Assembly: GCF_902498785.1 (NCBI RefSeq)
Contig: NZ_LR701494.1
Coordinates: forward strand, 620,001 to 684,000
DNA length: 64,000 nt
Source of the DNA: Sphingomonas sp. EC-HK361
Lineage (GTDB): Bacteria > Pseudomonadota > Alphaproteobacteria > Sphingomonadales > Sphingomonadaceae
Reading direction: 5' to 3'
Shown here one piece after another: positions 21,934-45,339 of the stretch; within the stretch, counting starts at the first letter, position 1; each line of letters opens with the position of its first letter. A program made the translations under genes and the position numbers. The notes beneath the pieces were generated by a model. The model worked only from the letters and a program-made list of their open reading frames with translations, searched no databases and was not told the origin of the DNA.

Positions 21934-22671
21934 TCAGCGCAGTCGCCGCGGCACCTTCGGGGCGAGCGCGGACAGCACGCCGCGCAGCGTGCGGACTTCC
22001 GGGCTCGACCAGCCGGGCTTCGTCAGCAGCGTCCGCAGCGTCCGCTTCGACGCGGGAACGCGGTCCGGCGGGAAGTAGAAGCCAGCCTCCTCCAGCATCG
22101 CGTCGAGCTGCGCGATCATCCCGTCGAGCTCGCCCTGCGGCGCGGGATCGGGAAGATCGACCTCGGGCGGCTGCGCCAGCGTGACGCCCTTCGACCACTC
22201 ATAGGCGACGAGGATCACCGCCTGGGCAAGGTTCAGGCTGCCGAACTCGGGATTGATCGGCACCGTGACGATGGTGCGCGCGATCGCGACGTCATCCGTC
22301 TCCAGCCCCGAACGTTCGGGGCCGAACAGGATCGCCGAGCGCCCCGGCCCCGCATGGATTTCACGCGCCGCGACTTCGGGCGTGACGACGGGCTTGGTGA
22401 CCCCGCGCTTGCGCACCGTCGTCGCATAGACATGCGCGCAGTCGGCAACGGCGTTCGCGACGCTGTCGAAGACCTGTGCCTGCTCCAGCACGATGTCCGC
22501 GCCCGACGCAGCCGGTCCGGCCTGCGGGTTCGGCCACCCGTCGCGCGGCGCGACGAGCCGCATCTCGACGAGCCCGAAATTGAGCATCGCGCGCGCGGCC
22601 TTGCCGATGTTTTCGCCGAGCTGCGGGCGGACGAGGACGATGACGGGGGCAGGCGTGGTGGTGCTTCCCAC
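21934..22671 (-). CDS. trmJ: TrmJ-type tRNA 2'-O-methyltransferase (SPOUT)
   Basis: TrmJ methylates the ribose at position 32 of several tRNAs. The SPOUT fold is clear: PVIVLVRPQLGENIGKAARAM, EMRLVAPRDGWPNP, the knot motifs ILFGPERSGL and VPINPEFGSLNLAQAV, and a C-terminal helical part (MIAQLDAMLEEAGF). The start given is GTG at 22671, which yields a 245-residue protein of normal length. The frame does not stop upstream: it stays open through an inverted-repeat arm and joins the GIY-YIG gene that starts at 22989, so a fused 351-residue protein is possible. The GTG abuts the outer end of that arm. The exact start is uncertain. Confidence 0.87.
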   Translation of the reverse strand: MGSTTTPAPVIVLVRPQLGENIGKAARAMLNFGLVEMRLVAPRDGWPNPQAGPAASGADIVLEQAQVFDSVANAVADCAHVYATTVRKRGVTKPVVTPEVAAREIHAGPGRSAILFGPERSGLETDDVAIARTIVTVPINPEFGSLNLAQAVILVAYEWSKGVTLAQPPEVDLPDPAPQGELDGMIAQLDAMLEEAGFYFPPDRVPASKRTLRTLLTKPGWSSPEVRTLRGVLSALAPKVPRRLR

Positions 22672-22721
22672 CGTTCGGTTCGAGCCAGCGTCGAGCGCAG
22701 CCGAGGCGCGTGGTCGAGAAC
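22671..22721. repeat. Left inverted-repeat arm of GIY-YIG cassette 1
   Basis: Begins CCGTTCGGTTCGAGC and ends GTCGAGAAC, 51 bases. It is inverted relative to the arm at 22996-23045: the outer 15 bases and inner 9 bases are identical, with matching TCGAGC and GCCGAG blocks between them. It lies in frame between the nuclease and methyltransferase coding regions. Confidence 0.85.
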
Positions 22722-22989
22722 GCGAGGCCGCCGATATTCCAGCCCAGTCGCTCCGGAAGAGCGCTTCCTTCTTTTTGCGTGACCAGTCTTTCACCTGGTG
22801 CTCGCGCTCAAGCGCGTCGAGGCGCGTGGGAAATTCCTCCGCCCACATCAATTCGACCGGCAAGCGCTTGCTCGTATAGCCTTCTAATGCGCCCGTCTCA
22901 TGCTGAGCCAACCGGCGCTCCAAATCTTCGGTGTGACCGGTGTAATACGTGCCGTCCGAGCATCGGAGGATATAGACCCAGAACGTCAT
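22672..22989 (-). CDS. GIY-YIG nuclease domain, reading into trmJ
   Basis: About 85 residues of a GIY-YIG endonuclease of the small COG2827/URI type. It begins MTFWVYILRCSDG and carries the modified motif pair VYI...YTG, then the catalytic Arg in LERRLAQH, TRLDALEREHQVKDW with the Glu, and RKKKEALFRSDW. There is no stop codon; the frame continues through the repeat arm at 22671-22721 into trmJ. It is about 55% identical over an ungapped 85-residue alignment to the gene at 44225-44620. It is bracketed by inverted arms and lies between nrdR and trmJ. Family members are nucleases of uncertain substrate. Whether it is translated as a separate protein is unknown. Confidence 0.82.
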
Positions 22990-22995
22990 GCGCAG

Positions 22996-23045
22996 GTTCT
23001 CGACGATTGCATCTCGGCAAGCTCGATGCAGCTCGAACCGAACGG
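22996..23045. repeat. Right inverted-repeat arm of GIY-YIG cassette 1
   Basis: Begins GTTCTCGACGATTGCATC and ends CTCGAACCGAACGG, 50 bases. It is the reverse complement counterpart of 22671-22721, with about 36 of 50 positions matching. An internal TGCATC/GATGCA stem is present. It starts 7 bases upstream of the nuclease ATG and reaches to within 12 bases of the nrdR stop. Confidence 0.85.
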
Positions 23046-23056
23046 ATCTCTTGTTG

Positions 23057-23530
23057 TCACCCCCGCCCCACTTCCTCCACACTGCCAGCGAATTCCTCGA
23101 AGTCCCTCGCCTCGCTGAAATCGCGATAGACGCTCGCAAAGCGGATATACGCGACTGAATCGAGTCCCTTCAGCCCGTCCATCACCATCTCGCCGATCCG
23201 CTTCGACGAAACATCGGCCTCTCCCAGCGTTTCGAGCTGGCGCTGGATGCCCGACACCAGCCGCTCGATCGCGACGCCATCGACCGGGCGCTTGCGCGTC
23301 GCAATCGCGATGGAACGCAGCAGCTTTTCGCGGTCAAAGGACTCGCGGCGCACTCCGCCCGCCCCTTCGCTTTTCACGACGGTCAGATCGCGAAGCTGGA
23401 TGCGTTCGAACGTCGTGAAGCGCGCGGCGCAGCCCTCGCACTGGCGTCGCCGACGGATCGCCGCCCCGTCTTCGGTGGGGCGGCTGTCCTTCACCTGGCT
23501 GTCGTCATGGCCGCAAAAGGGGCAGCGCAT
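23057..23530 (-). CDS. nrdR: Transcriptional repressor NrdR
   Basis: NrdR senses ATP and dATP and represses ribonucleotide reductase genes. The 157-residue product has the N-terminal zinc ribbon ([20 protein letters not shown] with a second pair in [13 protein letters not shown]) and the ATP-cone domain: [21 protein letters not shown] and [15 protein letters not shown]. Length is normal, with a slight C-terminal extension EVGRG that runs up to the repeat arm of the GIY-YIG cassette. It lies downstream of glyA and a small membrane protein on the same strand. Confidence 0.97.
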
Positions 23531-23542
23531 CCGGTCTGGTTC

Positions 23543-23731
23543 CTAGGCCTTCTTGTTCTTCATATAGGCGTAGGCCGCGCCGCCGAGCGCACCGAAGATC
23601 GGGCCGACGAACGGCACCGGGATCGCCACGACCGCGCCGAGCGCCGCCCATTTCGCCATGCTCTTGCCGAGTTCAGGATCGCGCTTCACGTCGCCCGTCA
23701 CTTCCTTGATCTTGTCGTCGATGCCGGCCAT
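23543..23731 (-). CDS. Small membrane protein of unknown function
   Basis: A 62-residue product beginning MAGIDDKIKEVTGDVKRD. It has an amphipathic start and then one or two hydrophobic segments (WAALGAVVAIPVPFVGPIFGALG and GAAYAYM), and a lysine-rich end. The N-terminus resembles the CsbD-like stress proteins (DKIKEVTGDVK), but the rest does not. It is between glyA and nrdR with gaps of 13 and 12 bases, so it is presumably co-transcribed. The longer open frame upstream reaches into glyA and is less likely. Confidence 0.65.
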   Translation of the reverse strand: MAGIDDKIKEVTGDVKRDPELGKSMAKWAALGAVVAIPVPFVGPIFGALGGAAYAYMKNKKA

Positions 23732-23744
23732 GCGCCGCTGCTCC

Positions 23745-25052
23745 TTACTGATAGATGGGAAAGCGCGCGCACAGCGTGCGCACACGGGTCCGAACGTCCG
23801 CCTCGACCTTCGGGTCCCCCGCTTCGCCCTTTGCCCGCAGTCCGTCGAGGACGTCGGCGACCATATGGCCGATCTCGCGGAATTCTGCGGGTCCGAAGCC
23901 GCGGGTCGTGCCGGCGGGCGAGCCGACGCGGATGCCGCTGGTCTTCACCGGCGGCAGCGGATCGTTGGGGATGCCGTTCTTGTTGCAGGTAATGCCGGCG
24001 CGCTCCAGCGCCTCGTCGGCATCCTTGCCCGTCACGCCGAGCGGGGTGAGATCGACGAGCGCCAGATGCGTGTCGGTGCCGCCGGAGACGATCTCCGCGC
24101 CGCGCTCTTTCAGAGTCGCGGCCAGCACCTTCGCGTTCTCGATGACGGCCGCGGCGTAGCTCTTGAATTCCGGCCGCAGCGCTTCCCCGAATGCGACCGC
24201 TTTCGCCGCGATCACATGCATCAGCGGCCCGCCCTGAAGGCCGGGGAAGACCGCGGAGTTGATCTTCTTCGCCACGCCTTCGTCATTGGTCAGCACCATG
24301 CCGCCGCGCGGCCCGCGCAGCGTCTTGTGCGTCGTCGTCGTCACGACATGCGCGTGGGGCAGCGGCGAGGGATGATGCCCGGCCGCCACCAGCCCGGCGA
24401 AATGCGCCATATCGACCATCAGCTTCGCGCCGACCTTGTCCGCAATCGCGCGAAAGCGTTCGAAATCGATGACGCGCGGATACGCCGATCCGCCCGCGAT
24501 GATCAGCGTCGGCTTGTGCTCGACCGCAAGCGCCTCCAGCGCGTCATAGTCGATCAGATGGGTGTCGGGATCCACGCCGTACTGCACCGCGTTGAACCAC
24601 TTGCCCGACATCGCCGCCTTCGCGCCGTGGGTCAGGTGCCCGCCGGCATCGAGGCTCATGCCCAGGATCGTGTCGCCCGGCTTGGTCAGCGCGAGCATCA
24701 CCGCGCCGTTAGCCTGCGCGCCCGAATGCGGCTGGACGTTGGCAAAGCCGCAGTCGAAGAGCTGCTTCGCGCGGTCGATCGCCAGCTGCTCGACCTCGTC
24801 GGAAGGGTGACAGCCCTGATAGTAGCGCTTGCCCGGATAACCCTCGGCATATTTGTTGGTGAAGACAGACCCCTGCGCTTCCAGCACCGCCCTGGAGACG
24901 ATGTTTTCGCTCGCGATCAGCTCGATCTGGGTCTGCTCGCGCTCCAGCTCGTGCGCGACGCCGACGAAGATCGTGGGGTCCGCTTCGGCCAGCGTGCGGG
25001 TGAAGAAGCCGTCCGGCTGCACGTCCGAAAGGGTGCGGGGGTTGGTGCTCAT
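23745..25052 (-). CDS. glyA: Serine hydroxymethyltransferase
   Basis: GlyA interconverts serine and glycine and supplies methylene-tetrahydrofolate. The 435-residue PLP enzyme shows [36 protein letters not shown], the [13 protein letters not shown] motif, and the PLP lysine in [16 protein letters not shown]. The ATG at 25052 overlaps the rpiB stop (ATGA). The pair rpiB-glyA is usual in alphaproteobacteria, followed here by nrdR. It supplies one-carbon units that PanB, encoded at 2152-3027, also uses. Confidence 0.98.
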
Positions 25053-25489
25053 GCGAATTCCTTCCGGGATAGCTTGTCGACGCGGTGTTGGTGTCGCCCG
25101 CCCTCGAAATCGGCGTCGAGGAAGGCGGTGATGCAGGCCTTGGCCATTTCCTCGCCGACCAGCCGCGCGCCGATCGCGATCGCGTTGGCGTCGTTGTGGG
25201 TGCGCGCGAGGCGGGCCGAGAGCGGTTCGCTGACCTGTGCGCAGCGACACGCGGGGTTGCGGTTGGCGGCGATGGCGATGCCGATGCCCGACCCGCAGAG
25301 TGCGATCCCGCGTTCAACCCGGCCGTCGGCTAGCGCGCCCGCGACCGCTTCGCCATAATCGGGATAATCGACGCTGGCGGTGCCGTGCGTTCCCAGATCC
25401 TCGACCGCGTGACCCGCAGCCTCCAGCCAGGGGACGAGCACGTCCTTGAGGGCGACGGCGGCATGGTCTGATGCGATGGCGATGCGCAT
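25049..25489 (-). CDS. rpiB: Ribose-5-phosphate isomerase B
   Basis: RpiB interconverts ribulose-5-phosphate and ribose-5-phosphate. The 146-residue product begins [18 protein letters not shown] and has the catalytic Cys in [16 protein letters not shown], then [20 protein letters not shown], all diagnostic of the RpiB/LacAB family. The start at 25489 is chosen because the motif at the N-terminus is invariant; a longer frame to 25834 is a shadow. It overlaps glyA by 4 bases. It is divergent from the lipoprotein gene at 25657 across 167 bases that hold the promoters; I see no recognisable operator there. Confidence 0.95.
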
Positions 25490-25656
25490 GGGCAGCGGCG
25501 CTCCGGCTCGGGTGATCGGGGATCGCTGGCCCCTTACCGCCCAACGTCGCGAAATGCCACAGGCCAAAAAGATTCTGCGGGACACCCGACTGGAGCGGAA
25601 CGGGCGCCGCCGCGGGCGGTTGAGGATAACCTGTATCAAGAAAGGGGGTTGCGCCG

Positions 25657-26124
25657 ATGTCGCGTGGAATACCGTTATCGGCCATGTCGTGCCTCGCCCT
25701 GATCGCCGCGTGCAGCCGGCCCGCCCCCGAAACCAATGTGACCGACGTGGCCGGGTCAGCCGGCGCGGTCGATCGCAATGTTGCCGAGGTGGCGCCTTCG
25801 CCCGAGCCTTCGCCAGTTCCCGTTCCGTCGCCATCGCCCAGCGCCACGCCCGCGAATCTCGCGGGCCGCTGGATCGGGGTCGAGGGAATGTATCTCGTGG
25901 TCAAGCCGACCGCGCCGGACACCTATGCGCTCGAAATGCAATATGACCTCGACCACAAGATGACCGCGACGGGCCGTGCGGCCGACGACGGCATCGCCTT
26001 CGAACGCGACGGCAAGACGCTCACGTTGAAACCGAGCGATGGTGCCGCGACCGGCCTCAAATATCTCGACGGGAAGCGCGACTGCCTGACGGTCGCTCCC
26101 GGCGAGGGATATTGCCGCGGCTGA
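25657..26124 (+). CDS. Putative lipoprotein of unknown function
   Basis: A 155-residue product with a lipoprotein signal (LSAMSCLALIAACSR; the Cys of LIAAC would be lipidated). A Pro/Ser/Glu-rich linker follows at about residues 45-65 (PSPEPSPVPVPSPSPS). The C-terminal domain of about 85 residues starts NLAGRWIGVEGMYLVVKP and ends with a Cys pair (RDCLTVAPGEGYC). The domain looks like a small beta-barrel of lipocalin-like character, but I recognise no family. The stop overlaps the ATG of the DUF3429 gene, so the two are coupled. Confidence 0.75.
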   Translation: MSRGIPLSAMSCLALIAACSRPAPETNVTDVAGSAGAVDRNVAEVAPSPEPSPVPVPSPSPSATPANLAGRWIGVEGMYLVVKPTAPDTYALEMQYDLDHKMTATGRAADDGIAFERDGKTLTLKPSDGAATGLKYLDGKRDCLTVAPGEGYCRG

Positions 26125-26612
26125 TGTTGCACCCAACCGGCACCGCAATGGTCGGCACAACCCGGTTGCTCGGTTTCGCCGGGCTGATTCCGCAACTGAT
26201 CGCGATCCTGTTCATCGTCAGCGGCATCGATCCGGCGCTCGGCGCGCTCGCGGCGTTCCTCTATGCCGCGATGATCCTGAGCTTCATCGGCGGGATATGG
26301 TGGGGATTCGCGGTCGGGCGCGGCGAGGGCCAGGCGTCGGTCGCGGCGATCGCGGTCACGCCGACGATCGTCGCCGGCCTCTTCATCCTCGCGCGGCTGC
26401 TCGGAATGCCGGTCAGCTGGGCGCTCGTCGCGCTGGGCAGCGCGATCATGCTGACACTGCTGATCGACCGCGAACTCGTGAAGGAGGCGCGCGCGCCGCG
26501 CGACTGGATGACACTGCGGGTGCCCCTGTCGCTAACGCTGGGATCGATGACGATCCTCGCCGGCATACTTGCGCCCCATGCCATCACGATCAGCTACAGC
26601 GTCGTGAATTAG
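26124..26612 (+). CDS. DUF3429 membrane protein
   Basis: A 162-residue inner-membrane protein with five hydrophobic segments: LLGFAGLIPQLIAILFIVSG, ALAAFLYAAMILSFIGGIWWG, AAIAVTPTIVAGLFILARLL, WALVALGSAIMLTLLIDREL and the last LTLGSMTILAGILAP. The pattern GLIPQ...FLYAAMILSFIGGIWWG matches the DUF3429 family, whose function is unknown. The ATG at 26124 overlaps the lipoprotein stop; Met at 26148 is an alternative. It converges on hemA with a gap of only 4 bases. Confidence 0.8.
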   Translation: MLHPTGTAMVGTTRLLGFAGLIPQLIAILFIVSGIDPALGALAAFLYAAMILSFIGGIWWGFAVGRGEGQASVAAIAVTPTIVAGLFILARLLGMPVSWALVALGSAIMLTLLIDRELVKEARAPRDWMTLRVPLSLTLGSMTILAGILAPHAITISYSVVN

Positions 26613-26616
26613 CCGA

Positions 26617-27873: not shown

Positions 27874-27914
27874 GGCCGGCCCATCTAGGCGATCGCACGG
27901 GCGCGCACCACCCT

Positions 27915-29159: not shown

Positions 29160-29176
29160 TCCCGTTTTTCTTTTCC

Positions 29177-29190
29177 TGATAACGTTGTCA
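29177..29190 (-). promoter_or_regulatory. LacI-family operator upstream of the MFS transporter
   Basis: TGATAACGTTGTCA is a 14-base palindrome with a central AACGTT; only one of the seven pairs is mismatched. It matches the common operator type for LacI-family repressors and lies 18 bases upstream of the transporter ATG. The likely binder is the LacI-family protein encoded 1.2 kb away. Confidence 0.7.
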
Positions 29191-29218: not shown

Positions 29219-29319
29219 CCGTTCGCCCTGAGCCTGTCGAAGGGACGCACTTCTTGTAAGGGAGGGCGGGGCTTCGACAAGCCTGTCCCGAGCGTGTCGA
29301 GGGGCTCAGCCCGAACGGT
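29219..29319. repeat. REP-like inverted pair with an enlarged arm
   Basis: The left arm is CCGTTCGCCCTGAGCCTGTC. The right arm ends CTCAGCCCGAACGG, but about 22 extra bases (rich in CCTCGACACGCTCGGG on the minus strand) separate CTGAGC from CTTGTCGAAG. The outer stem GGGCT/AGCCC is kept. The pair ends 1 base before the exporter start region. Confidence 0.8.
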
Positions 29320-29320
29320 G

Positions 29321-33644: not shown

Positions 33645-33725
33645 CCGTTCGCACTGAGCTTGTCGAAGTGCCGTTCTTTCTTGCGCGGAAGAAGGACGGG
33701 GCTTTGACAAGCTCAGCCCGTACGG
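33645..33725. repeat. REP-like inverted pair (PBP-threonine aldolase)
   Basis: Left arm CCGTTCGCACTGAGCTTGTC with stem triplets GCA/TGC; right arm GACAAGCTCAGCCCGTACGG with stem GGG/CCC. It fills the gap after the PBP gene. Confidence 0.85.
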
Positions 33726-33777
33726 ATTGGCGCACATCGCGGTTGACGAGCCTTCGCACCCCCGTAATGCGCTGCGC

Positions 33778-34779
33778 ATGCGCTTCTTCTCCGACAACGC
33801 CGCCCCGGTCCACCCTGCCGTCCTGAAGGCGATGGCGGACGTCAACGTCCTCGACACCGCTTATGATGGCGACCGCTGGTCGAAGTCGCTCGACGCGCGC
33901 TTCTCGGACCTGTTCGAAACCGAAGTGCGCGCGCTCTGGGTGCCGAGCGGCACCGCTGCCAATTGCCTCGCGCTCGCCGCCCTCTGCCCGCCCTATGGCG
34001 GCGTGGTCTGCCACCGCGACGCGCACATCCAGAACGACGAGGCCGGCGCACCCGAATTCTACACCCACGGCGCCAAGCTGATGCTCGTCGACGGCGACGG
34101 CGCGAAGATGACCCCCGACGCGATCACCGCGACGCTCGACGCCATCGCGGGCGACGTCCACCGCGTCCAGCCGCACGCGATCTCGATCACCAACGCGACC
34201 GAATATGGCCGCGTGTACACGCCCGCCGAAGTCGCAGCGATCGGCGCCCTTGCAAAGGCGCGGGGCCTCGGTTTCCACATGGACGGCGCGCGCTTCGCCA
34301 ATGCTGTCGCGCATCTCGGCTGCTCGCCCGCCGAGGTGACGTGGCGAGCTGGCGTCGAGGCACTGAGCTTCGGCTTCGTGAAGAACGGCGCGATGAACGC
34401 GGAGGTGCTCGTCTTCTTCAAGACCGACCTCGCCGATGCGACGCTCATCCGCCGCAAGCGCGCCGGGCACCTGCTGTCCAAGGGTCGCTATTTGGCGGTT
34501 CAGCCGCTCGCGATGCTCGAAGACGATGTGTGGCTGGAGAACGCCCGCGCCGCGAATGCCGGCGCGACCCTGCTGGCGAGCGGCGCAGGGGATCGCCTGA
34601 TCCATCCCGTCGAGGCGAACGAAGTCTTCCTGCGCGCGACGCCCGACGAAGCCGCGGCGCTGCGGGCGGAGGGCTTCGATTTCTACGACTGGGCGGCCGG
34701 CGAGATACGGCTCGTCACGTCCTGGGATCAGCAAGCAGAGGCGATCCGGCCACTCGCCGACGCGATCGCCGCGCTCTAA
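33778..34779 (+). CDS. Low-specificity threonine aldolase / beta-eliminating lyase
   Basis: A PLP fold-type I aldolase that cleaves threonine or allo-threonine to glycine and acetaldehyde. The 333-residue product begins MRFFSDNAAPVHPAVLKAM. It shows VPSGTAANCLALAAL, CHRDAHIQNDEAGAPEF, FHMDGARFANAV, and the PLP-lysine region SFGFVKNGAMNAEVLVFF. The ATG at 33778 is preferred because the family motif follows at once; the frame is open back to a TTG at 33727, just beyond the REP pair. It sits between two REP pairs and appears to be its own transcription unit. Confidence 0.91.
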   Translation: MRFFSDNAAPVHPAVLKAMADVNVLDTAYDGDRWSKSLDARFSDLFETEVRALWVPSGTAANCLALAALCPPYGGVVCHRDAHIQNDEAGAPEFYTHGAKLMLVDGDGAKMTPDAITATLDAIAGDVHRVQPHAISITNATEYGRVYTPAEVAAIGALAKARGLGFHMDGARFANAVAHLGCSPAEVTWRAGVEALSFGFVKNGAMNAEVLVFFKTDLADATLIRRKRAGHLLSKGRYLAVQPLAMLEDDVWLENARAANAGATLLASGAGDRLIHPVEANEVFLRATPDEAAALRAEGFDFYDWAAGEIRLVTSWDQQAEAIRPLADAIAAL

Positions 34780-34783: not shown

Positions 34784-34870
34784 CCGTTTGCCCTGAGCTT
34801 GTCGAAGGGCCGCCCTTACCTTCGCTCCAAAGAAAGAAGAACGGTGCTTCGACAGGCTCAGCACGAACGG
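34784..34870. repeat. REP-like inverted pair reaching into the EamA gene
   Basis: Left arm CCGTTTGCCCTGAGCTTGTC with stem CCC/GGG; right arm GACAGGCTCAGCACGAACGG with stem GTG/CAC. It begins 5 bases after the threonine aldolase stop. The right arm overlaps the presumed EamA start codon and first codons. Confidence 0.87.
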
Positions 34871-35782: not shown

Positions 35783-36603
35783 TCGGGATAGGCGGGCGAC
35801 CAGCCGAGCACGCGCTTCGCCTTGCCGTTCGCGACCCGGCGATTCTCCGCATAGAAGGCGCGCGCGATCGGTGAGAGGATTTCGAGCGGCACGAATGGCG
35901 GCGGTTCGAGGCCGAGCAGGGACGCAGCGAATGCGGCGACCTCATTCTGCCCGCACGGCGCGTCGTCGGCCAGGTTGTAGGCGCCCGCAGGCGCATCGAA
36001 TCCCGCGATCACCCCGCTGGCGATATCGTCGACATGCACCCGGCTGAAGACCTGCCCCGGAACATCGACACGGTGCGCGTGGCCCGCCGCCGCTCGATCG
36101 AGCGGGGACCGCCCCGGACCATAGATGCCCGGCAATCGGAAAACCCGCGCGCCAAGTTCGAGCCAGGCGGCATCGGCAGCGTTGCGACCCTCGCGCCTTC
36201 CCCGGATCGACACGGTTTCGTCGACCCACGCGCCCCCTGCGTCCCCATAGACACCGGTCGACGAAAGATAGCCGAGCCATAACCTTTTCCCGTCACCCCA
36301 GCGCAGGCTGGGGTCCATATCTGGTCGGTGTGGCACATCGGAGAGACATGGATCCCGGCCTTCGCCGGGATGACCAAGGAGAGGACCGAATCGCGCCAGC
36401 ACCGGATCGCCCTCACTGTCCGGCGGCACCGACGACAGCACATGCGTCGCCGTCGCCAACTCGCGCTCGACCGCCGGATCGTCGAACGCCAGCGTCCCCT
36501 CGCGCCCATCCCGCGTCGTGCCGACCACCCGCCACCCCGGCAGCCGCGCCGCGATCGCCTGCGCGGTATAGCCGAAGCCGAAGATTAGCAGCCGACCGGT
36601 CAC
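35692..36603 (-). CDS. NAD-dependent epimerase/SDR protein carrying a palindromic-repeat insert
   Basis: An extended SDR of 303 residues, YeeZ-like. It begins (M)TGRLLIFGFGYTAQAIAARL with a shortened Rossmann motif, has GYLSSTGVYGD at the active-site Ser region, VFRLPGIYGPGRSPLD and VHVDDIASGVIAGFD. Between LLGHP and KRLWLGYLSS lies an in-frame stretch encoded by a full palindromic repeat (36291-36375), adding about 28 residues just before the catalytic strand. The usual YxxxK Tyr-Lys pair is not obvious, as in other atypical members. The start is GTG at 36603, 2 bases after the M28 stop region, so it is in an operon with the peptidase gene. Confidence 0.8.
   Translation of the reverse strand: MTGRLLIFGFGYTAQAIAARLPGWRVVGTTRDGREGTLAFDDPAVERELATATHVLSSVPPDSEGDPVLARFGPLLGHPGEGRDPCLSDVPHRPDMDPSLRWGDGKRLWLGYLSSTGVYGDAGGAWVDETVSIRGRREGRNAADAAWLELGARVFRLPGIYGPGRSPLDRAAAGHAHRVDVPGQVFSRVHVDDIASGVIAGFDAPAGAYNLADDAPCGQNEVAAFAASLLGLEPPPFVPLEILSPIARAFYAENRRVANGKAKRVLGWSPAYPDYRLGLRALSAITRPMPVSTAPPIASGDQR
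36291..36375. repeat. Family 2b palindromic element inside the SDR gene
   Basis: It starts CGTCACCCCAGCGCAGGCTG and ends CGGCCTTCGCCGGGATGACC. Hairpin CCCCAGCGCAGGCTGGGG is at one end and TCCCGGCCTTCGCCGGGA at the other, with unique DNA between. The same element type lies at 49195-49330. It is read in frame as part of the coding sequence. Confidence 0.85.
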
Positions 36604-38257: not shown

Positions 38258-38329
38258 GCGGGATCCTTGTGAAGAGCGGTGTATCGAGCGCGTAGCACGC
38301 CGAACCGCCCGCGCAAGGATTCGGATGGA

Positions 38330-40954
38330 ATGGCCGCGCACGCCGACTATATGTCGGGAATGATCGACGTGCAGACCGCGCCCGCCCAACCGACCGTCAC
38401 GCGCCGTGAGGCCTACAGCGCGCCCGAATGGCTCGTGCCGGACATCCATCTCGATTTCGATCTCGATCCGGCGGAAACACGCGTGAAAGCGCGGCTGTCG
38501 GTGAAACGAAACGGCGCGCACACGGACCCGCTACGGCTCGACGGTGCCGGGCAGCAGCCGCTCTCGGTGATGATCGACGGTGTCGCGGTCAACGACTGGC
38601 GGCTCGATGGCGAGACGCTCGTGATCCCGCTGTCGGGCGCTGCACACACGATCGAGACAGAGGTTGCGATCGCGCCGGATCGCAACACGCAGTTGATGGG
38701 TCTTTACGCCTCGGGCGGCAATCTGTGCACCCAGTGCGAGGCGGAAGGCTTTCGCCGCATCACCTATTTCCCCGATCGGCCAGACGTCCTCAGTCGCTAT
38801 GCGGTGCGGATGACCGCCGACAAGGCGCGCTTCCCGGTGCTGCTCGCGAACGGCGATCCCATCGCGCAGGGCGATGCGGATGGCGGCAAGCACTGGGCGG
38901 AGTGGAACGATCCCTATCCCAAGCCCTGCTACCTCTTCGCGCTGGTCGCTGGCGATCTCGCGGTCAATCGCGGCACCTTCACCACCCGCTCGGGCCGCGA
39001 AGTCGCGCTCGGCATCTGGGTGCGCGCGGCCGACCTGCCCAAGACCGACCACGCGCTCGACGCTCTGAAGACGTCGATGGCATGGGACGAGCGTGTCTAT
39101 GGCCGGGAATATGATCTCGACGTGTTCAACATCGTCGCGGTCGATGATTTCAACTTCGGCGCGATGGAGAACAAGGGGCTGAACATCTTCAACAGCCGCT
39201 ACATCCTCGCCGATCCCGATACCGCCACCGATTACGATTATGACGCCATCGCCGCCGTCGTCGCGCATGAGTATTTTCACAACTGGAGCGGCAACCGCGT
39301 CACGTGCCGCGACTGGTTCCAGCTGTCCCTGAAGGAAGGCTTCACGGTCTACCGCGACCAGAGCTTTTCCGCCGATCAGGGCAGCGCCGCGGTCAAGCGG
39401 ATCGAGGATGTCCGCGGGCTTCGTGCAGCGCAGTTCCCCGAGGATTCCGGCCCGCTCGCGCACCCCGTCCGGCCGGAAAGCTATATCGAGATCTCGAACT
39501 TCTACACCGCCACCATCTACAACAAGGGTGCCGAGCTCATCCGGATGATGGCGACGATCCTCGGCCCCACGAAATTCCGCGCCGCGACCGATCTCTATTT
39601 CAATCGCTTCGATGGCACCGCCGCGACCTGCGAGGATTTCGTCGCCTGCATGGAGGAGGCCGGCGACGTCGATCTCTCACAGTTCCGGCTTTGGTACAGC
39701 CAGGCCGGCACACCCCGCGTCTCGGCCAGCCTCGATCACCGTGATGGCGGCGGACGTGCGACGCTGCGTCTGGCCCAGCATGTCCCGCCGACGCCCGGTC
39801 AGGACGTGAAGGCGCCGATGGTCCTGCCACTCAAGGTCCGGCTGTTCGGCGCGGAAACCGGCAAGCCGCTGACCGAGGAACAGCTCATCCAGCTCGATTC
39901 CGCCGCCGAAACGGTGACGTTCGAAGGCATTGCCGAACGTCCGGTCCTGTCGATCAACCGCGGCTTTTCTGCCCCTGTCGTCATCGAAAGCGATCGCTCC
40001 GCGGCCGATCTCGCGTTCCTCTCGGCAAACGACGACGATCCGTTCGCGCGGTATGAGGCAATGCAGCAGCTCATGCTCGATACCCTCGTGGCCGCCACGA
40101 TCGAGGGTCGCGCCGATCACAAGGCAGTCATCGAAGCGGTATCGAACACGATCGAGGACCCGGAGCTGGACTGGGCGTTCGTCGCCGAAGCCGTACTGCT
40201 GCCGTCCGAAAGCTTCATCGGCGATCAGCTGTCGACGGTCGATCCCGACGCGATCTTCCGCGCGCGTGAGGCACTGCGCCGCGACCTAGGGCGCAGTCTC
40301 GCCGACCTGTGGCGCCTGGCCTATGATCAGGCGCCCAAGGGGCCTTACACCTATTCGCCCGACGCCAAGGGCAAGCGCCGCCTGCGCGCGGTCGCGCTCG
40401 GCTACATCGCCGCGAGCGGCGCCGACGATGCCGCCACCCTTGCCTTTCGCCAGTTCGAGGCGGCGGATAACATGACCGACCGGCAGGCCGCGCTCACGAC
40501 GCTTGCGAACGGCACGTCGGACGAGCGCGAGGCCGCGCTCGACATCTTCTACAATCGCTACGCCACGAACCCGCTCGTCCTCGACAAATGGTTCCAGACT
40601 CAGGCGCTTTCGTCGCGCGACGATACCCCCGCGATCGTCGCGGAGCTTGCCCGGCATCCCGACTTCACGCTCGCCAACCCCAATCGTGCCCGCTCGCTCG
40701 TCGGTGCGTTCGGGGTCAACCAGCGCGCGTTCAACGCGGCCGACGGGGCGGGCTATCGCTTCCTCGCCGACCAGCTCATCGCGCTCGACAAGCTGAACCC
40801 GCAGACCGCCGCGAAGCTGCTCCCCCCGCTCGGCCGCTGGCGCCGCTTCGACGAAGCGCGCGCGGCGCTCATGCGCGCCGAACTGGACCGCATCGTCCGC
40901 ACGCCGGGCTTGTCGAAGGACCTGTTCGAGCAGGCATCGAAAAGTTTGGAGTAG
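38330..40954 (+). CDS. pepN: Aminopeptidase N (M1 family)
   Basis: PepN removes N-terminal residues from peptides in the cytoplasm. The 874-residue product has the exopeptidase motif FGAMENKGLNIFN, the zinc motif VVAHEYFHNWSG with the third ligand Glu in LKEGFTVYRDQ, and the C-terminal helical domain of the bacterial PepN type (ALRRDLGRSL, TLANGTSDEREAALD). The start at 38330 follows an AAGGATTCGGATGG ribosome site; Met at 38351 or 38360 (MIDVQT) is possible. Length is normal. It is followed by a REP pair that separates it from the convergent TonB-like gene. Confidence 0.96.
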   Translation: MAAHADYMSGMIDVQTAPAQPTVTRREAYSAPEWLVPDIHLDFDLDPAETRVKARLSVKRNGAHTDPLRLDGAGQQPLSVMIDGVAVNDWRLDGETLVIPLSGAAHTIETEVAIAPDRNTQLMGLYASGGNLCTQCEAEGFRRITYFPDRPDVLSRYAVRMTADKARFPVLLANGDPIAQGDADGGKHWAEWNDPYPKPCYLFALVAGDLAVNRGTFTTRSGREVALGIWVRAADLPKTDHALDALKTSMAWDERVYGREYDLDVFNIVAVDDFNFGAMENKGLNIFNSRYILADPDTATDYDYDAIAAVVAHEYFHNWSGNRVTCRDWFQLSLKEGFTVYRDQSFSADQGSAAVKRIEDVRGLRAAQFPEDSGPLAHPVRPESYIEISNFYTATIYNKGAELIRMMATILGPTKFRAATDLYFNRFDGTAATCEDFVACMEEAGDVDLSQFRLWYSQAGTPRVSASLDHRDGGGRATLRLAQHVPPTPGQDVKAPMVLPLKVRLFGAETGKPLTEEQLIQLDSAAETVTFEGIAERPVLSINRGFSAPVVIESDRSAADLAFLSANDDDPFARYEAMQQLMLDTLVAATIEGRADHKAVIEAVSNTIEDPELDWAFVAEAVLLPSESFIGDQLSTVDPDAIFRAREALRRDLGRSLADLWRLAYDQAPKGPYTYSPDAKGKRRLRAVALGYIAASGADDAATLAFRQFEAADNMTDRQAALTTLANGTSDEREAALDIFYNRYATNPLVLDKWFQTQALSSRDDTPAIVAELARHPDFTLANPNRARSLVGAFGVNQRAFNAADGAGYRFLADQLIALDKLNPQTAAKLLPPLGRWRRFDEARAALMRAELDRIVRTPGLSKDLFEQASKSLE

Positions 40955-40974
40955 GGCCCACACGACGCCCTTCC

Positions 40975-41062
40975 CCGCTCGCACTAAGCCTGTCGAAATG
41001 CCGTACTTCTTTTGCAACTGATGCGGAGAAGGACGGTGCTTCGACAAGCTCAGCACGAACGG
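40975..41062. repeat. REP-like inverted pair (pepN-TonB)
   Basis: Left arm CCGCTCGCACTAAGCCTGTC (somewhat decayed; stem GCA/TGC); right arm GACAAGCTCAGCACGAACGG with stem GTG/CAC. It fills the gap between two convergent genes and may act as a transcript end. Confidence 0.83.
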
Positions 41063-41095
41063 AATCGAGGACCTTGGCCGCCCTGTATTCCACCC

Positions 41096-41887
41096 TCAAA
41101 ACGGAAATCGCCGCCGACGCTCCACCACGGGCGGCCCCGGTTCCGCCGGCACGATCTCTTCCGACCAGCCATGACTCTCCGTCACCACTGATTCCACAGC
41201 GCGCCCAGAAGGATCGCGTGAGGGCCTGAAGCGGAACCGTTCCTCGATCAGCCGGCACGTCGTTGCATCGAGCAGCCGGTTGCCACTCGAATGCCGGATT
41301 TGGCAGTCGGTGACACGGCCATTCGGCTGCACGACATAATCGACATAGACGGGCTTGGTCTGATTCCGATCCCCCGCCTCGTCAGGGAAATCGGAATCCT
41401 TGAGCTTCCCTCTTATCTGGACCGGCGCGGTGAAGCCTCCATCCCCGTCGCCATCGCCATAGCGTCCGCTTCCGGTCCCGTTGCCGACGCCGCCCGCGCC
41501 CGTCCCCGGCCCGACGATATCGGCATTGCCCGAGGTCGCGTCCGCGCCGACGCCGGCCTTCTCCGCGACCGGAATCGGCGGCGGCAACGGGGGCGGAATG
41601 ACGATAGGCTTGGGCGCCACCACCTGCGTCGCCTTCGATCGCAGATTGGGCGGCGCCGCAGCTCCTTCGGGACGCGTCGAGCGGACGATGTGGGGTTTGG
41701 TCGTTTCGCGCGGCGGGGGCGGCGGTGGCGGGGTCACGGCAAAGACCTTGAGGCTATCCTCGACCACCCCGGGCATGTGCATCGCCAGCCCGGTGAACAG
41801 GGCGTAGCCGAGCACCGCCTGCACGCCGAGCGCCAGCGCGGCCCCGCGCGCGCGCTCCGTCCTGGAGGGTTGCAGATACGTCGCCAT
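41096..41887 (-). CDS. TonB-family energy transducer protein
   Basis: A 263-residue product with an N-terminal membrane segment (GAALALGVQAVLGYALFTGLA) and a proline-rich spacer (PPPPPPPRETTKPHIV, then PPPLPPPIPVAE). A glycine/aspartate-rich stretch follows (GTGAGGVGNGTGSGRYGDGD). The C-terminal TonB domain includes YVDYVVQPNGRVTDCQI and LLDATTCRLIEERFRFRPSRD. TonB proteins couple the proton motive force to outer-membrane receptors. No ExbBD or receptor gene is close, so this is one of several TonB-like proteins expected in a sphingomonad. Met3 (41887) is preferred over Met1 at 41893. Confidence 0.82.
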   Translation of the reverse strand: MATYLQPSRTERARGAALALGVQAVLGYALFTGLAMHMPGVVEDSLKVFAVTPPPPPPPRETTKPHIVRSTRPEGAAAPPNLRSKATQVVAPKPIVIPPPLPPPIPVAEKAGVGADATSGNADIVGPGTGAGGVGNGTGSGRYGDGDGDGGFTAPVQIRGKLKDSDFPDEAGDRNQTKPVYVDYVVQPNGRVTDCQIRHSSGNRLLDATTCRLIEERFRFRPSRDPSGRAVESVVTESHGWSEEIVPAEPGPPVVERRRRFPF

Positions 41888-41938
41888 CGTCACGCATGTC
41901 GGCCTGCAACACCCGCGATTTCAAGAGGCTGAACCGCC

Positions 41939-42493
41939 TCAGCCCACGCGTTTCAGCGTCGTCCGATTGCGGGGCAGCCACGCGTCTTTCCCATCCCCGT
42001 CCGGATCGACCTCCTTCAACACCGTCAGCATATCGCCGTCGCGGGTCGTCGTTTCGCGCAGCTTGGCCAACCCGTCGCCGTCGCGGGCATGTTCCTGCGC
42101 AACGATCGTCCAGTGCGTCGCGTCGCGCGGCGGTGCCGGCATCGAGAGGATCGCGGTGCCGCTCGACAGCGGCTTGCCCTTGCGAAAGCTCGCATAGCTC
42201 TCGGTCTCGTTGGTGGTATCGACCAGCGAGATCGTGGTGATGACGACCGCGCCGGTCTTCGGCCCGTCGTCGAAGGTTGCCGTGCGGATCATCGTCGCGC
42301 CATCCGCCTGCAGCGCGATCGTGGCGGTCATCGGCAGGCCTTCCCAGCGATTGCTCTGATAGTCGCGATATTCCAGCCGACCGGTCCAGGTCCCCGCCGT
42401 GCCCGCAAGCAACGACGCGATACTCGGCGGCGCGACGGTCTGCGCAGTGGCCGGGAGGGCAAGCAGCAGTGAAGCGACAAACAAGCGAAGCAT
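41939..42493 (-). CDS. Secreted protein of unknown function
   Basis: A 184-residue product with a signal peptide (MLRLFVASLLLALPATAQT). The mature part starts VAPPSIASLLAGTAGTWTGRLEYRDYQSNRWEGLP and has a beta-rich appearance (TATIALQADGATMIRTATFDD, LSSGTAILSMPAPP). The layout suggests a lipocalin- or heme-binding-like fold, but no named family is recognised. The start at 42493 is chosen for the signal peptide; the longer frame overlaps the sirtuin gene. It is divergent from the sirtuin gene with 81 bases between starts. Confidence 0.72.
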   Translation of the reverse strand: MLRLFVASLLLALPATAQTVAPPSIASLLAGTAGTWTGRLEYRDYQSNRWEGLPMTATIALQADGATMIRTATFDDGPKTGAVVITTISLVDTTNETESYASFRKGKPLSSGTAILSMPAPPRDATHWTIVAQEHARDGDGLAKLRETTTRDGDMLTVLKEVDPDGDGKDAWLPRNRTTLKRVG

Positions 42494-42574
42494 GAAGACC
42501 CCCGAATGATCGACGCACAGCCTCTCACGATCGACGGCGTTGCGCGAGCGCAAAGCTGCGCTACCCTCCCGCCC

Positions 42575-43273
42575 ATGCGGGATATCCGAAACATCGTCGT
42601 CCTGACCGGCGCGGGCATTTCCGCCGAGAGCGGCATCGCCACCTTTCGCGGCCCCGGCGGCTTGTGGGAGGGGCACCGTGTCGAGGATGTCTGCACGCCG
42701 CAAGCGCTCGCGCGCGATCCCGATCTCGTCCACCGCTTCTACGATCTGCGCCGCGCGGCACTCGCCGGGGTAGAGCCGAACCCCGCCCACCGCGCACTTG
42801 CCCGCCTCGACGCCGAATGGCCGGGCAAACTTCTGATCGTGACGCAGAACGTCGATGACCTCCACGAGCGCGCCGGTGCGCGGCGCCTGCTCCACATGCA
42901 CGGCGAGCTACGATCGGCACTATGTGCGGCGTGCGGCGCGCGCATCAAATGGAGCGGCGATCTGCCACCCGACACACCTTGCGCGGACTGTGGCGCGGCG
43001 ACGCTTCGCCCCGACATCGTCTTTTTTGGGGAGATGCCCTACGCAATGGAGCGCATCGAAGCCGCCCTCGCCCAAGCCGACCTGTTCGTGTCGATCGGTA
43101 CGTCAGGTGCGGTCTATCCCGCTGCCGGGTTCGTCCAGACTGCCCGCTATCACGGTGCCGAAACGCTGGAACTCAACCTCGATCCGTCGGAAGGCAGCGG
43201 GTGGTTCGGCCAGAGTCGCCTTGGTCCGGCGAGCGTGCTGGTGCCAGCGTGGGTGGACGAAGTGCTGCCTTAA
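42575..43273 (+). CDS. cobB: NAD-dependent protein deacylase (class III sirtuin, CobB type)
   Basis: The 232-residue enzyme removes acyl groups from lysines using NAD. It starts MRDIRNIVVLTGAGISAESG with the NAD-binding loop and FRGPGGLW. The catalytic His is in HMHGEL and the TQNVDDLHERAG motif is present. Four zinc cysteines lie in CAACG and CADCG. Tyr56 and Arg59 in FYDLRR match the Tyr-x-x-Arg pair of SIRT5/CobB-type enzymes that also remove succinyl or malonyl groups, so desuccinylase activity is plausible. The ATG at 42575 begins the family domain directly. A palindromic element follows the stop. Confidence 0.94.
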   Translation: MRDIRNIVVLTGAGISAESGIATFRGPGGLWEGHRVEDVCTPQALARDPDLVHRFYDLRRAALAGVEPNPAHRALARLDAEWPGKLLIVTQNVDDLHERAGARRLLHMHGELRSALCAACGARIKWSGDLPPDTPCADCGAATLRPDIVFFGEMPYAMERIEAALAQADLFVSIGTSGAVYPAAGFVQTARYHGAETLELNLDPSEGSGWFGQSRLGPASVLVPAWVDEVLP

Positions 43274-43275
43274 AA

Positions 43276-43330
43276 TGTGCTCCCGCGAAGGCGGGAGCCC
43301 AGTCTGGGTCCCCGCCTTCGCGGGGACACA
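43276..43330. repeat. Family 2a palindromic element (sirtuin-era)
   Basis: Two hairpins, CTCCCGCGAAGGCGGGAG and TCCCCGCCTTCGCGGGGA, flank the constant CCAGTCTGG core. It lies between two convergent stop codons and may serve as a bidirectional terminator. Confidence 0.85.
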
Positions 43331-43334
43331 CGCG

Positions 43335-44228
43335 CTACTCCACCCAATCCAGCCCGATATCGCGGTAGGTTGCACGGTCTTCGTCCCAGCCGGGCTTGAC
43401 CTTCACGTGCAGATACAGATGCACCGGCCGCTCCATCAGCTCGGTCAGCTGCGCGCGCGCCTTTGCGCCGATCTCCTTGATCCGCTGCCCGCCCTTGCCG
43501 AGGATGATCGCGCGCTGGGTCGGCCGCTCGACGAGAATCTGCTGGTGAATTTCGACCGATCCGTCCGCCCGCTCGTCGAATTTCTCGGTCTCGACGGTGC
43601 TCGCATAGGGCAGCTCGGCATGAAGCTGGAGATACAGCTGCTCGCGCGTCACCTCCGCCGCCAGCGCGCGTTCGGTCGCGTCAGACACCTGATCTTCGGG
43701 AAAGTGCCACGGCCCCGCCGGCATCGCCTTCGCAAAGGCGCGCTTCAATTCGGGCACGCCGTCGCCTGTTTCCGCGCTCACGAACCACGTCTCCGCGAAA
43801 GGAAGAATCGCGTTCAGCTTCTCGGCGTGAACGAGCAGCTTCTCCTTGGTCGCGATGTCGACCTTGTTGAGGATCAGATGCTTTGGTTCGGGCCGATCTT
43901 TCAGGCTCTCGGCGATCGCCGTCACCTTCTCCGGCAGCCCGCCCTTCCCGTCGACGACGAGCGCGATGACGTCAGCGCCCTCCGCCCCGCCCCACGCAGC
44001 CGCGACCATCGCGCGGTCGAGCCGTCGCCGAGGCTCGAAAATACCCGGCGTGTCGATGAGCAGCACCTGCGTGTCGCCCTCGATCGCAACGCCCATCAGC
44101 TTGGCGCGCGTCGTCTGCGCCTTGGGACTGACGATCGCGACCTTCTGCCCGACCAGCGCATTGACGAGGGTGGACTTGCCCGCATTGGGCGCGCCGACGA
44201 CGGCGACAAGGCCGCAGGATTGGGTCAT
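43335..44228 (-). CDS. era: GTPase Era
   Basis: Era binds the 3' end of 16S rRNA and helps 30S assembly. The 297-residue product has GAPNAGKSTLVNALVGQ (G1), the Thr of G2 in AQTTRAKLMG, DTPGIFEPRR (G3), LNKVD (G4) and SAETGDG (G5). A KH domain contains ILGKGGQRIKEIG. Its start overlaps the stop of the GIY-YIG gene (ATGA), whose 3' end consists of REP sequence. In most related operons rnc is followed directly by era; here the nuclease gene intervenes. Confidence 0.97.
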   Translation of the reverse strand: MTQSCGLVAVVGAPNAGKSTLVNALVGQKVAIVSPKAQTTRAKLMGVAIEGDTQVLLIDTPGIFEPRRRLDRAMVAAAWGGAEGADVIALVVDGKGGLPEKVTAIAESLKDRPEPKHLILNKVDIATKEKLLVHAEKLNAILPFAETWFVSAETGDGVPELKRAFAKAMPAGPWHFPEDQVSDATERALAAEVTREQLYLQLHAELPYASTVETEKFDERADGSVEIHQQILVERPTQRAIILGKGGQRIKEIGAKARAQLTELMERPVHLYLHVKVKPGWDEDRATYRDIGLDWVE

Positions 44229-44620
44229 GTGATTGTCTCGGTGTCAGGCCGCCCTTCGACAGGCTCAGGGCGAACGGATTTTTGAAGATCGCTCCAGCCT
44301 TTAGCCGTTCGCCCTGAGCTTGTCGAAGGGCGGCCAGCGCTATGACGATTCCGGGCTAGCAGCGAAACGCGGTCCCAGTCCCCGGCGATCAATGCTTCCT
44401 TCTTCGCGCGCGTCCAGCCCTTGATCCGACGCTCCACTTCCAGCGCCTCCAACCGAGTGGAGAAGTCCGCACTCCATACGAGCGAAACCGGCCGGCGATG
44501 CTTGGTGTGACCATCAATCGCGCCGGTATGATGCTGGCCGATCCGCGCTTCGAGGTTGTCGGTGTGGCCGCAATAGAAGCTGCCGTCGCCACACCGTAAA
44601 AGGTAACACCAGAAGGTCAT
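44225..44620 (-). CDS. GIY-YIG nuclease inserted between rnc and era
   Basis: A 131-residue product with an 85-residue GIY-YIG domain. It begins MTFWCYLLRCGDGSFYCGHT (modified GIY and YIG motifs), then LEARIGQHHTG, TRLEALEVERRIKGW with the Glu, and KKEALIAGDW. It is about 55% identical, without gaps, to the domain at 22738-22989. The last 40 residues are encoded by two REP arms (GRPSTSSGRT... and RPEPVEGRP...) and are unlikely to fold. Both ends overlap neighbouring genes by 4 bases (ATGA with rnc, ATGA with era). Cleavage target is unknown; a link with the flanking REP arms is proposed in the findings. Confidence 0.9.
   Translation of the reverse strand: MTFWCYLLRCGDGSFYCGHTDNLEARIGQHHTGAIDGHTKHRRPVSLVWSADFSTRLEALEVERRIKGWTRAKKEALIAGDWDRVSLLARNRHSAGRPSTSSGRTAKGWSDLQKSVRPEPVEGRPDTETIT
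44252..44330. repeat. REP-like pair, arms back to back, left side of GIY-YIG cassette 2
   Basis: Arms at 44252-44277 (CCCTTCGACAGGCTCAGGGC...) and 44305-44330 (CCGTTCGCCCTGAGCTTGTC...), both with stem CCC/GGG. Their order is opposite to that in the other pairs: the GAACGG ends face each other. The 44305 arm mirrors the arm at 44650. Confidence 0.88.
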
Positions 44621-45339
44621 CCGCCCGACCTCGATTTGCGCGAAGGTCGCCCTTCGACCGGCTCAGGGCTAACGGTCCGGGTCAGGTCCTTCAGCAACGC
44701 CGCCGCCGCGGCCGTCTCCGCCTCCTGCTTGCTGGCGCCCGTTGCGGTCGCCTCGGTCAGCTTGGGAATCGCGACACGGATCGTGAAGCGCGGCGCGTGC
44801 CCGGGGCCCGAACGGTCCGTGATCTCGTAAACCGGTGGCTTGCGGTTGTTCGCCGCCGCCCATTCCTGGAGCGCGGACTTCGGATGATGCGGCACCGCGG
44901 CGTCGGCGAGAATACGGTCTGCCCAAAGGCGGCGGACGACACCGCGCGCAGTATCGAGCCCGGCCTCCAAATAGAGCGCGCCGAGCAGCGCCTCCATCAC
45001 ATCGCCAAGCACATTGTCGCTGTCCGCCGCACCGTCGTCGCGCGCCTGCTTGCCCAGCCGCAGCCGTTCGGGCACGCCCAGCCCACGCGCGACCTCGGCG
45101 CAAACAGCGCCGGTGACGAGCGCATTGAAGCGCTTCGACAATTTGCCTTCGCTTTCCTGGGGGAAGACCGCGTAAAGCCACTCCGAAACGGTCAGCCCCA
45201 AAACGCGGTCGCCCAGAAATTCTAGGCGCTCATAGGTGTCAGCGGCGCGGCTGCCGTGCGTCAGTGCGCGCTCGAACAGGGCCGGGTCGCGGGCCGTATG
45301 CCCGAAGATCGATGCGACCCAATCGGCGACTTTGTTCAA
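44617..45339 (-). CDS. rnc: Ribonuclease III
   Basis: RNase III cuts double-stranded RNA, including rRNA precursors. The 240-residue product has the signature YERLEFLGDRVLGLTVSEW, the second acidic site DVMEALLGALYLEAG, and a double-stranded RNA-binding domain (PKSALQEWAAANNRKPPVYE ... GASKQEAETAAAAALL). The start is TTG at 45339, overlapping the lepB stop (TTGA). An in-frame ATG at 45381 or 45399 would overlap lepB by more. The last 20 residues (SPEPVEGRPSRKSRSGG) come from a REP arm that borders the inserted nuclease gene, so the native C-terminus has been replaced or extended. Confidence 0.95.
   Translation of the reverse strand: MNKVADWVASIFGHTARDPALFERALTHGSRAADTYERLEFLGDRVLGLTVSEWLYAVFPQESEGKLSKRFNALVTGAVCAEVARGLGVPERLRLGKQARDDGAADSDNVLGDVMEALLGALYLEAGLDTARGVVRRLWADRILADAAVPHHPKSALQEWAAANNRKPPVYEITDRSGPGHAPRFTIRVAIPKLTEATATGASKQEAETAAAAALLKDLTRTVSPEPVEGRPSRKSRSGG
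44650..44675. repeat. REP-like single arm, right side of GIY-YIG cassette 2
   Basis: CCCTTCGACCGGCTCAGGGC followed by TAACGG. It is inverted relative to the arm at 44305-44330 and lies within the 3' end of rnc, 29 bases upstream of the nuclease start codon. Confidence 0.88.

Follow-up and report, generated by a model that had tools for sequence, protein, structure and literature searches.

We analyzed a 64 kb stretch of DNA (hereafter the window) of Sphingomonas sp. EC-HK361, contig NZ_LR701494.1, positions 620,001-684,000, which carries two small genes for UPF0213-like GIY-YIG nucleases, each lying between two inverted palindromes, its arms (Table 1). PF01541 was the sole Pfam family on both genes, and the two proteins aligned without gaps over 96 residues at 53% identity, where an earlier reading made without database searches (the sequence-only reading) had given about 55% over about 85 residues for two homologous domains. 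As that reading had also stated, the outer ends of the inverted palindromes around both nucleases read CCGTT. From this arrangement it had proposed a relation like that of repetitive extragenic palindromic (REP) sequences and REP-associated tyrosine transposases (RAYTs), with a GIY-YIG enzyme in the RAYT position. The frequency of the arms, the number of repeats and the co-variation of arm and nuclease classes, presented below, support this proposal.

The arms were analyzed around relatives of the nuclease at 80 loci, the best 80 of 548 confirmed, from one-per-species genomes and picked on protein similarity alone. The arm score was the best ungapped inverted match between the 250 bases upstream and the 250 bases downstream of a gene; 82 of the 83 genes, the window's two included, had enough flank, and three random same-length intervals per gene at the same loci served as control. 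We observed a score of at least 15 for 69/82 nuclease genes compared to 3/246 random intervals, and of at least 20 for 55/82 compared to 2/246. Arm sequences were CCGTTCG..TGAGC..GTCGAA.. and variants of it; on both sides the tag points outward, and genes with such arms were found in Sphingomonadales, Gallionella, Thauera, Nitrotoga, Methylobacter and some Syntrophaceae and Binatia metagenome-assembled genomes. A draw of 299 Pseudomonadota genomes gave 37 nuclease matches, of which 30 were examined (2 already among the best-80 loci): arms were present at 21 of the 25 genes of at least 98 bits and at none of the 5 genes of 75-84 bits. The test made on that draw comprised 38 loci in all, at least 8 of them shared with the best-80 set, and found arms at 27/38 compared to 0/190 controls. 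Most of the group of 98-119 bits carried CCTCATCCTGAGG...CCTCGAAGGATGAGG, a palindrome that is related to these arms and has a similar CTGAG/TCGAAGG core. Distant relatives in Pseudomonadota (loci L101-L110) and in Methylobacterium bullatum (L293) were likewise mostly flanked by palindromes, here CCTCATCCTGAGG/CCTCGAAGGATGAGG or GGCACCTCAGGATGAGG, which make up a third repeat type whose core is similar.

The same association was observed with the tag alone. We looked for a CCGTTC-like tag upstream and downstream of each gene, within 200 bases (260 bases downstream for the 81 genes). It was present on both sides at 63/81 nuclease genes and at 67/88 nuclease genes of a single genus described below, compared to 17/844 other mechanically called open reading frames (ORFs) and 0/20 other GIY-YIG genes. 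By both measures, arms are much commoner beside these GIY-YIG genes than elsewhere, as the proposal had implied, and the association of arms and nuclease is confirmed far more widely than in the window.

We then analyzed 121 genomes of one genus, which held 88 nuclease genes in 75 genomes, with the arms sorted into five classes. Each arm fell in exactly one class in 61 genes, and in 59 of these the two arms were of the same class. On a nuclease tree of 87 genes, 9 of which fell in no arm class and in which few columns left many forks unresolved, arm class changed 6 times (minimum 4), compared to a mean of 44.9 after shuffling, and none of 200 shuffles was as low. The expected co-variation of nuclease subfamily and arm sequence is therefore strong. 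At one conserved site the locus L036 and the loci L001 and L003 share flanks at 83-89% identity (blastn); despite the shared flanks, the nuclease lineage and both arms differ together. The GIY-YIG gene and its two outward-tagged palindromes are probably one co-inherited unit, a REP-associated nuclease.

Repeat number was compared with nuclease class over the same 121 genomes, by counting exact class T repeats as well as class C repeats, with the arms included (about two per gene) and applying one-sided Mann-Whitney tests. The class T pattern occurred in 60/121 genomes, with a maximum of 139 exact matches in one. Genomes with a T-arm nuclease had at least 5 T repeats in 22/23 cases, with a median of 56, compared to 22/98 and a median of 0 for the others (p=2.6e-12). 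The median was likewise 0 in genomes with other arm classes only (at least 5 T repeats in 10/52) and in genomes without a nuclease match (12/46). For class C, at least 5 repeats were found in 11/13 C-arm nuclease genomes compared to 21/108 of the rest (p=5.5e-7); the test of C-arm nuclease against T repeat number gave p=0.06. In the Pseudomonadota draw, the T pattern was present in 6/27 nuclease genomes and 5/272 nuclease-free genomes. Over the stretch in which they were compared, the genomes G039 and G802 are 88-95% identical. G039 carries two nucleases together with 115 T and 138 C repeats, and G802 has only the nuclease at the nrdR-like site, sister to that of G039, with 18 T and 2 C repeats. 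Overall, repeat counts are related to nuclease presence, as had been proposed, and mostly to the presence of the matching class.

The repeats show the pairing of single hairpins. The REP unit is 27 bases long, within the 20-40 bases expected of a REP. We selected 236 class T repeats for their tag and loop letters, with no constraint on the three variable stem positions, so that the constancy of tag and loop comes from the selection. All three variable stem pairs were formed in 226/236 repeats, compared to a mean of 77 and a maximum of 97 after shuffling. In 44 inverted REP pairs (REPINs) with tags outward, 84/88 stems paired with themselves, and the left stem matched the right in just 8/44. 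Since the stem letters are free and pairing within each REP is kept, this is the pattern expected if a protein reads tag and hairpin. One CGTC unit (a repeat type described below) and one whole REPIN, the ones tried, beat shuffled sequences in nearest-neighbour folding. All 23 REPIN pairs of genome G208 were tag-outward, with spacings clustered at 43-47 and 58-61 and some reaching 77; genome G034 had 30 tag-outward and 7 tag-inward pairs. In the CCGTTC repeats of G034, units with a GGG stem were often paired with units with a CCC stem.

REPINs were also found to differ between related genomes. The window REPIN at 34784-34870 was absent at 11 of 12 homologous junctions in other sphingomonads (judged by eye at 72-79% identity, for presence or absence only), and the twelfth junction (L153) held a REP-like pair of its own. 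A 91-base REPIN at G039:1656848 was absent from G802 between flanks 92% identical, giving a clean occupied and empty site joined at about TCC/GGGG, with no target duplication longer than 2 bases. This difference may be an insertion or an exact loss. Another G802 site held a remnant resembling an internally deleted REPIN. The first stretch compared between G039 and G802 held three REPIN sites, namely this partly deleted remnant and two sites without a clean boundary; three further stretches gave the one clean site and, in two of them, no usable REPIN site. Insertion boundaries could be read in none of 17 other locus pairs, which were too diverged. By eye, the arms of one nuclease clade and REPINs share a CCGTTCTT-like inner stretch, and for this reason REPINs look like internally deleted elements.

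The nuclease itself is under purifying selection, with a median dN/dS of 0.09 over 64 close pairs. The residues Y6, Y16, R26 and E63, which are of catalytic type and match the Tyr, Arg and Glu expected in a GIY-YIG active site, were kept in 109-111 of 112 sequences. Profile relatives of known structure were the UPF0213 proteins 1zg2 (E 1.6e-21) and 1ywl (E 1.5e-17), of the family UPF0213/COG2827 to which YhbQ belongs; the structure-specific nuclease SLX1 was a weak profile relative. PADLOC and PHROGs gave nothing useful for the family.

A second subfamily came from genes intended as negative controls, 25 other GIY-YIG genes, 20 of them taken from 22 matches under 60 bits and 5 from a separate search. 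We observed inverted palindromes with a score of at least 20 at 18/25 of these genes, of another type: CGTCATTCCCGCGAAAGCGGGAACCCA, GTCACCCCGGACTTGTTCCGGGGTCCA and alike. Among these 18 loci of sphingomonad type, a [CT]GTC tag with hairpin stood on both sides in 11, on one side in 3 and on neither in 4, a few of these matches being due to chance. The loci L120-L124 and L272-L291 hold this second GIY-YIG subfamily, with a GVTSNL motif and mostly CGTC/dRS3-type palindromes in the flanks; L124 and L282 at least look like still other GIY-YIG kinds. In a plasmid collection, 13 of 31 records were examined, some of which resemble mislabelled chromosomes, and second-subfamily genes had arms in 9/13 cases compared to 4/96 random intervals. 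The nine genes with arms belonged to Azospirillum, Aeromonas, Neorhizobium, two Shinella, Novosphingobium, Sphingobium, Rhizobium and Neisseria gonorrhoeae. All 9 loci with arms had tag and hairpin on both sides, with a CCA-type tail by eye. Of the 13 genes, those of Photobacterium, one Rhizobium and Planktothrix lacked arms, and that of S. meliloti scored 18. The N. gonorrhoeae arm reads CGTCATTCCCGCG; since several such repeats surround that gene, the Neisseria case says less.

CGTC REPs have been defined as a hairpin preceded by a CGTC (or TGTC) tag, and CGTC-1 has been equated with dRS3 of Neisseria (Di Nocera et al., 2013, PMC3733652). According to the text of that paper, no transposase gene was found to be regularly flanked by them and they "apparently lack a dedicated transposase"; the same text, apart from the consensus sequences given in its figures, contains neither CCGTT nor GIY. 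Judged by their letters, the arms of the second subfamily mostly fit the CGTC REPs as defined in that text. CGTC/dRS3-type repeats probably relate to the second GIY-YIG subfamily as the CCGTTC repeats do to the first.

Returning to the window, the features are presented in Table 1. The arms of nuclease 2 are of the type CCGTTCGCCCTGAGC..GTCGAAGGGC. The sequence-only reading had placed the same arm type, without a nuclease gene, at six or more further places. We found five such places, or six if the REP at 44251 is counted, and the repeats there belong to the arm class of nuclease 2 and not to that of nuclease 1: CCGTTCGGTTCGAGC with up to 2 mismatches occurred within the window at the two arms of nuclease 1 only. 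A structure-aware scan gave 14 matches, of which 2 (967 and 2753) were dismissed as chance, compared to 4 matches in 640 kb of simulated sequence. TGAGCNTGTCGAAG with up to 1 mismatch had 12 matches in the window compared to 0.14 expected; the structure scan did not recognise the one at 53196 as a repeat. In the window, the two arms of nuclease 2 run into ORFs: those of the rnc-like gene (44617-45399) and of nuclease 2 (44225-44620) extend through REP arms and thereby gain peptides encoded by the repeat, SPEPVEGRPS and RPSTSSGRT among them. A second palindrome family is dispersed over the window, at 43274-43330, 47766-47822, 56128-56184, 56918-56974 and 60386-60442, and also at 36287 and 49191; it reads CCCGCGAAGGCGGGAG..CCCAGTCTGG and CCCCAGCGAAGGCTGGGG and resembles the CGTC REP class. 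Though these CGTC-like repeats are present, no second-subfamily nuclease was found in the window; a weak tblastn match at 54685-54936 (E 0.027) was rejected as a segment of glucose-6-phosphate dehydrogenase.

Table 1. Nuclease genes, arms and scattered repeats in the window (positions counted from its first base).
Feature	Positions	Strand	Description
GIY-YIG nuclease 1 (UPF0213-like)	22738-22989	-	PF01541, E 5.7e-19
GIY-YIG nuclease 2	44366-44620	-	PF01541, E 1.3e-16
Left arm, nuclease 1	22671-22721	+	class I palindrome, CCGTTCGGTTCGAGC...TCGAGC...GTCGAGAAC, tag outward
Right arm, nuclease 1	22996-23045	-	class I, has CCGTTCGGTTCGAGC, tag outward
Arm of nuclease 2, downstream side of gene	44305-44331	+	class T, tag outward
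Arm of nuclease 2, upstream side	44649-44675	-	class T, tag CCGTTA, outward
Extra REP beside the nuclease 2 element	44251-44277	-	class T
REPIN	20013-20099		inverted class T pair, tags outward
REP with degenerate partner	29219-29305		class T, one good arm
REPIN	33645-33725		class T pair
REPIN	34784-34870		class T pair, directly after the stop of ORF 33727-34779
REPIN	40975-41062		class T pair

Nuclease 1 lies between two genes that resemble nrdR and an RNA methyltransferase gene, and nuclease 2 between rnc-like and era-like genes, as named from sequence motifs and from the annotation of the like loci L292 and L307, respectively; the motifs are those expected for these genes, and were tested on the sequences. 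An all-against-all comparison of loci placed the nuclease gene at conserved sites across related genera; the loci L163-L168, L185, L314, L315 and L317 were left out of the analyses. With neighbours assigned from such motifs, a part of which are loose, 22 of the 83 genes lie at the nrdR/RNA methyltransferase-like site, which is also the site of the L036 comparison above, 9 at the rnc/era site and 52 elsewhere; for the 88 genes of the genus the numbers are 53, 18 and 17. At loci L050, L021 and L069, compared with L053, L070 and L076, two groups of species, the block of nuclease and arms is flipped relative to the same neighbours (about 9951-10308, and 8242-8599 in L053), the picture that an in-place inversion between the two inverted arms would leave.

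A nuclease enclosed by a repeat type that is also scattered suggests that the enzyme copies or spreads the repeats. We consider it probable that the system is one of REP-associated GIY-YIG nucleases, in which gene and arms form the co-inherited unit, REPINs are its gene-less derivatives and the nuclease mediates the copying or loss of REPINs. Recognition, cutting, spreading and the direction of cause are what we infer here, along the following lines. The scattered inverted pairs would be short derivatives of the unit of nuclease and arms. The nuclease would probably recognise the single REP hairpin by its unpaired CCGTTC tag and a stem bearing a tandem G-A motif, regardless of which letters make up the stem. 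It would cut at or near the tag once the hairpin is extruded from duplex DNA or becomes exposed at a replication fork. As the cut ends are repaired or replicated, REPINs could then be copied into intergenic sites or removed from them.

Several observations weigh against this reading. The repeat counts ignore species phylogeny and contain the arms themselves. At least 20 T repeats were found in 4 genomes of the genus without a GIY match (E<=1e-22) and in 5 whose nuclease arms were not scored T; in one of these 5 (G790) the nuclease match lacked the first 15 positions. Class specificity is partial, T-arm genomes being richer in C repeats too (p=1.3e-4), and the 138 C repeats of G039 occur without a C-arm nuclease. 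Five repeat-bearing genomes of the 299 (G034, G205, G299, G301, G193) had no GIY match at E<=1e-5; G034 among them has 72 exact CCGTTC repeats, or 97 with up to 1 mismatch, and a 1.4-kb interval between REPs of G301 showed by eye no nuclease among its ORFs. Because some repeat-rich genomes have no detectable nuclease, spread driven by the nuclease is an inference. In nearest-neighbour folding, single T, C, I and L units did no or hardly better than shuffled sequences. Over the loci centred on nuclease genes, tag-outward and tag-inward pairs were nearly equal (44 and 38). Finally, since the gene sits on conserved sites among related genera, it moves little.

This last point, together with strong purifying selection and the weak profile relation to SLX1, would also fit a nuclease that serves its host by processing REP hairpins or cruciforms, in SLX1-like upkeep or in mRNA or terminator processing, with the arms as its own control elements; the repeats would then owe their spread to general slippage during replication and to repair, and not to the nuclease. 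We regard this as unlikely, because alone it leaves unexplained both the abundance of matching repeats with the matching nuclease and the joint change of gene and both arms. A gene between two tag-outward arms also resembles a REPIN with cargo, and the inner stretch shared by REPINs and the arms of one clade could be taken the same way: the nuclease gene would have entered a REPIN between its REPs and been kept by homing, while other machinery spreads the REPs. REPs should then be about equally frequent without the matching nuclease, whereas the medians are 0 and 56; gene-less REPINs are common, but mainly in genomes with the matching nuclease. No other machinery was seen at the Y1 genes and in the one inter-REP interval of G301 looked at, a point qualified by the 17 other ORFs with the tag on both sides, and we judge such a passenger improbable.

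As for a RAYT acting from elsewhere, with the GIY-YIG link incidental, 4 of the 5 genomes that carry the repeats but gave no GIY match do have a Y1 gene. However, none of the five Y1 genes found, the single one of G034 included, had class T repeats within 1.5 kb, and 10 of 11 nuclease-bearing genomes searched had no Y1_Tnp match at E<=1e-4. We therefore rejected a RAYT as the source of the CCGTTC repeats and hold this very improbable. REPs are common in these genomes and might simply gather in intergenic gaps where GIY genes happen to sit; against the random-interval and other-ORF controls, and with arm class following the nuclease tree, such chance or hot-spot readings were rejected and have next to no probability. 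Beyond the CCGTTC system, we lean towards the view that stand-alone GIY-YIG nucleases are a second, independent class of REP-mobilising enzymes, found in Alpha-, Beta- and Gammaproteobacteria and also outside them. One subfamily would serve the CCGTTC repeats of sphingomonads and others as well as CCTCATCCTGAGG-type repeats, and another the superfamily of CGTC/dRS3 repeats, including those of Neisseria, for which it would be the enzyme reported missing in 2013.

Among known systems, the UPF0213/COG2827 proteins (1zg2, 1ywl) share the domain, and a literature search of open PMC papers found no repeat association of that family. The same scope gave no paper linking GIY-YIG to REPs, though a preprint, a closed paper or one outside the search results could exist. 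The CGTC REPs (dRS3 of Neisseria and others) are alike in that the arms of the second subfamily mostly show their tag and hairpin; the difference is that the text of Di Nocera et al. (2013, PMC3733652) gives them no dedicated enzyme. With two GIY-YIG subfamilies in the place of the RAYT for two kinds of REP, a protein of about 90 residues offers a direct test of the origin of such repeats. If the reading is true, a new catalytic fold joins the enzymes that move non-autonomous DNA, REP spreading having so far been credited to an enzyme family unrelated to GIY-YIG.

GIY-YIG homing endonucleases and Penelope-like elements likewise have a GIY-YIG nuclease serving a mobile sequence; in contrast, the window genes have no visible intron or reverse transcriptase, and the gene-less hairpins are many and dispersed. 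REPs are widespread in bacteria, and those linked to RAYTs, tagged GTAG, have a candidate enzyme. The REP/REPIN-RAYT systems of enterobacteria and pseudomonads are the closest parallel: tagged hairpin repeats, inverted pairs, a low-copy nuclease gene between the same repeats and a repeat class that tracks the enzyme class are common to both. RAYTs too combine a kept enzyme, at conserved sites and with low dN/dS, with a spreading gene-less repeat, which the GIY-YIG gene resembles. Here, however, the enzyme is of the GIY-YIG and not the HUH/Y1 (PF01797) kind, and the tag is CCGTTC and not GTAG. The system thus works like REP-RAYT but, with neither HUH domain nor GTAG tag, lies outside the RAYT family, its enzyme being unrelated.

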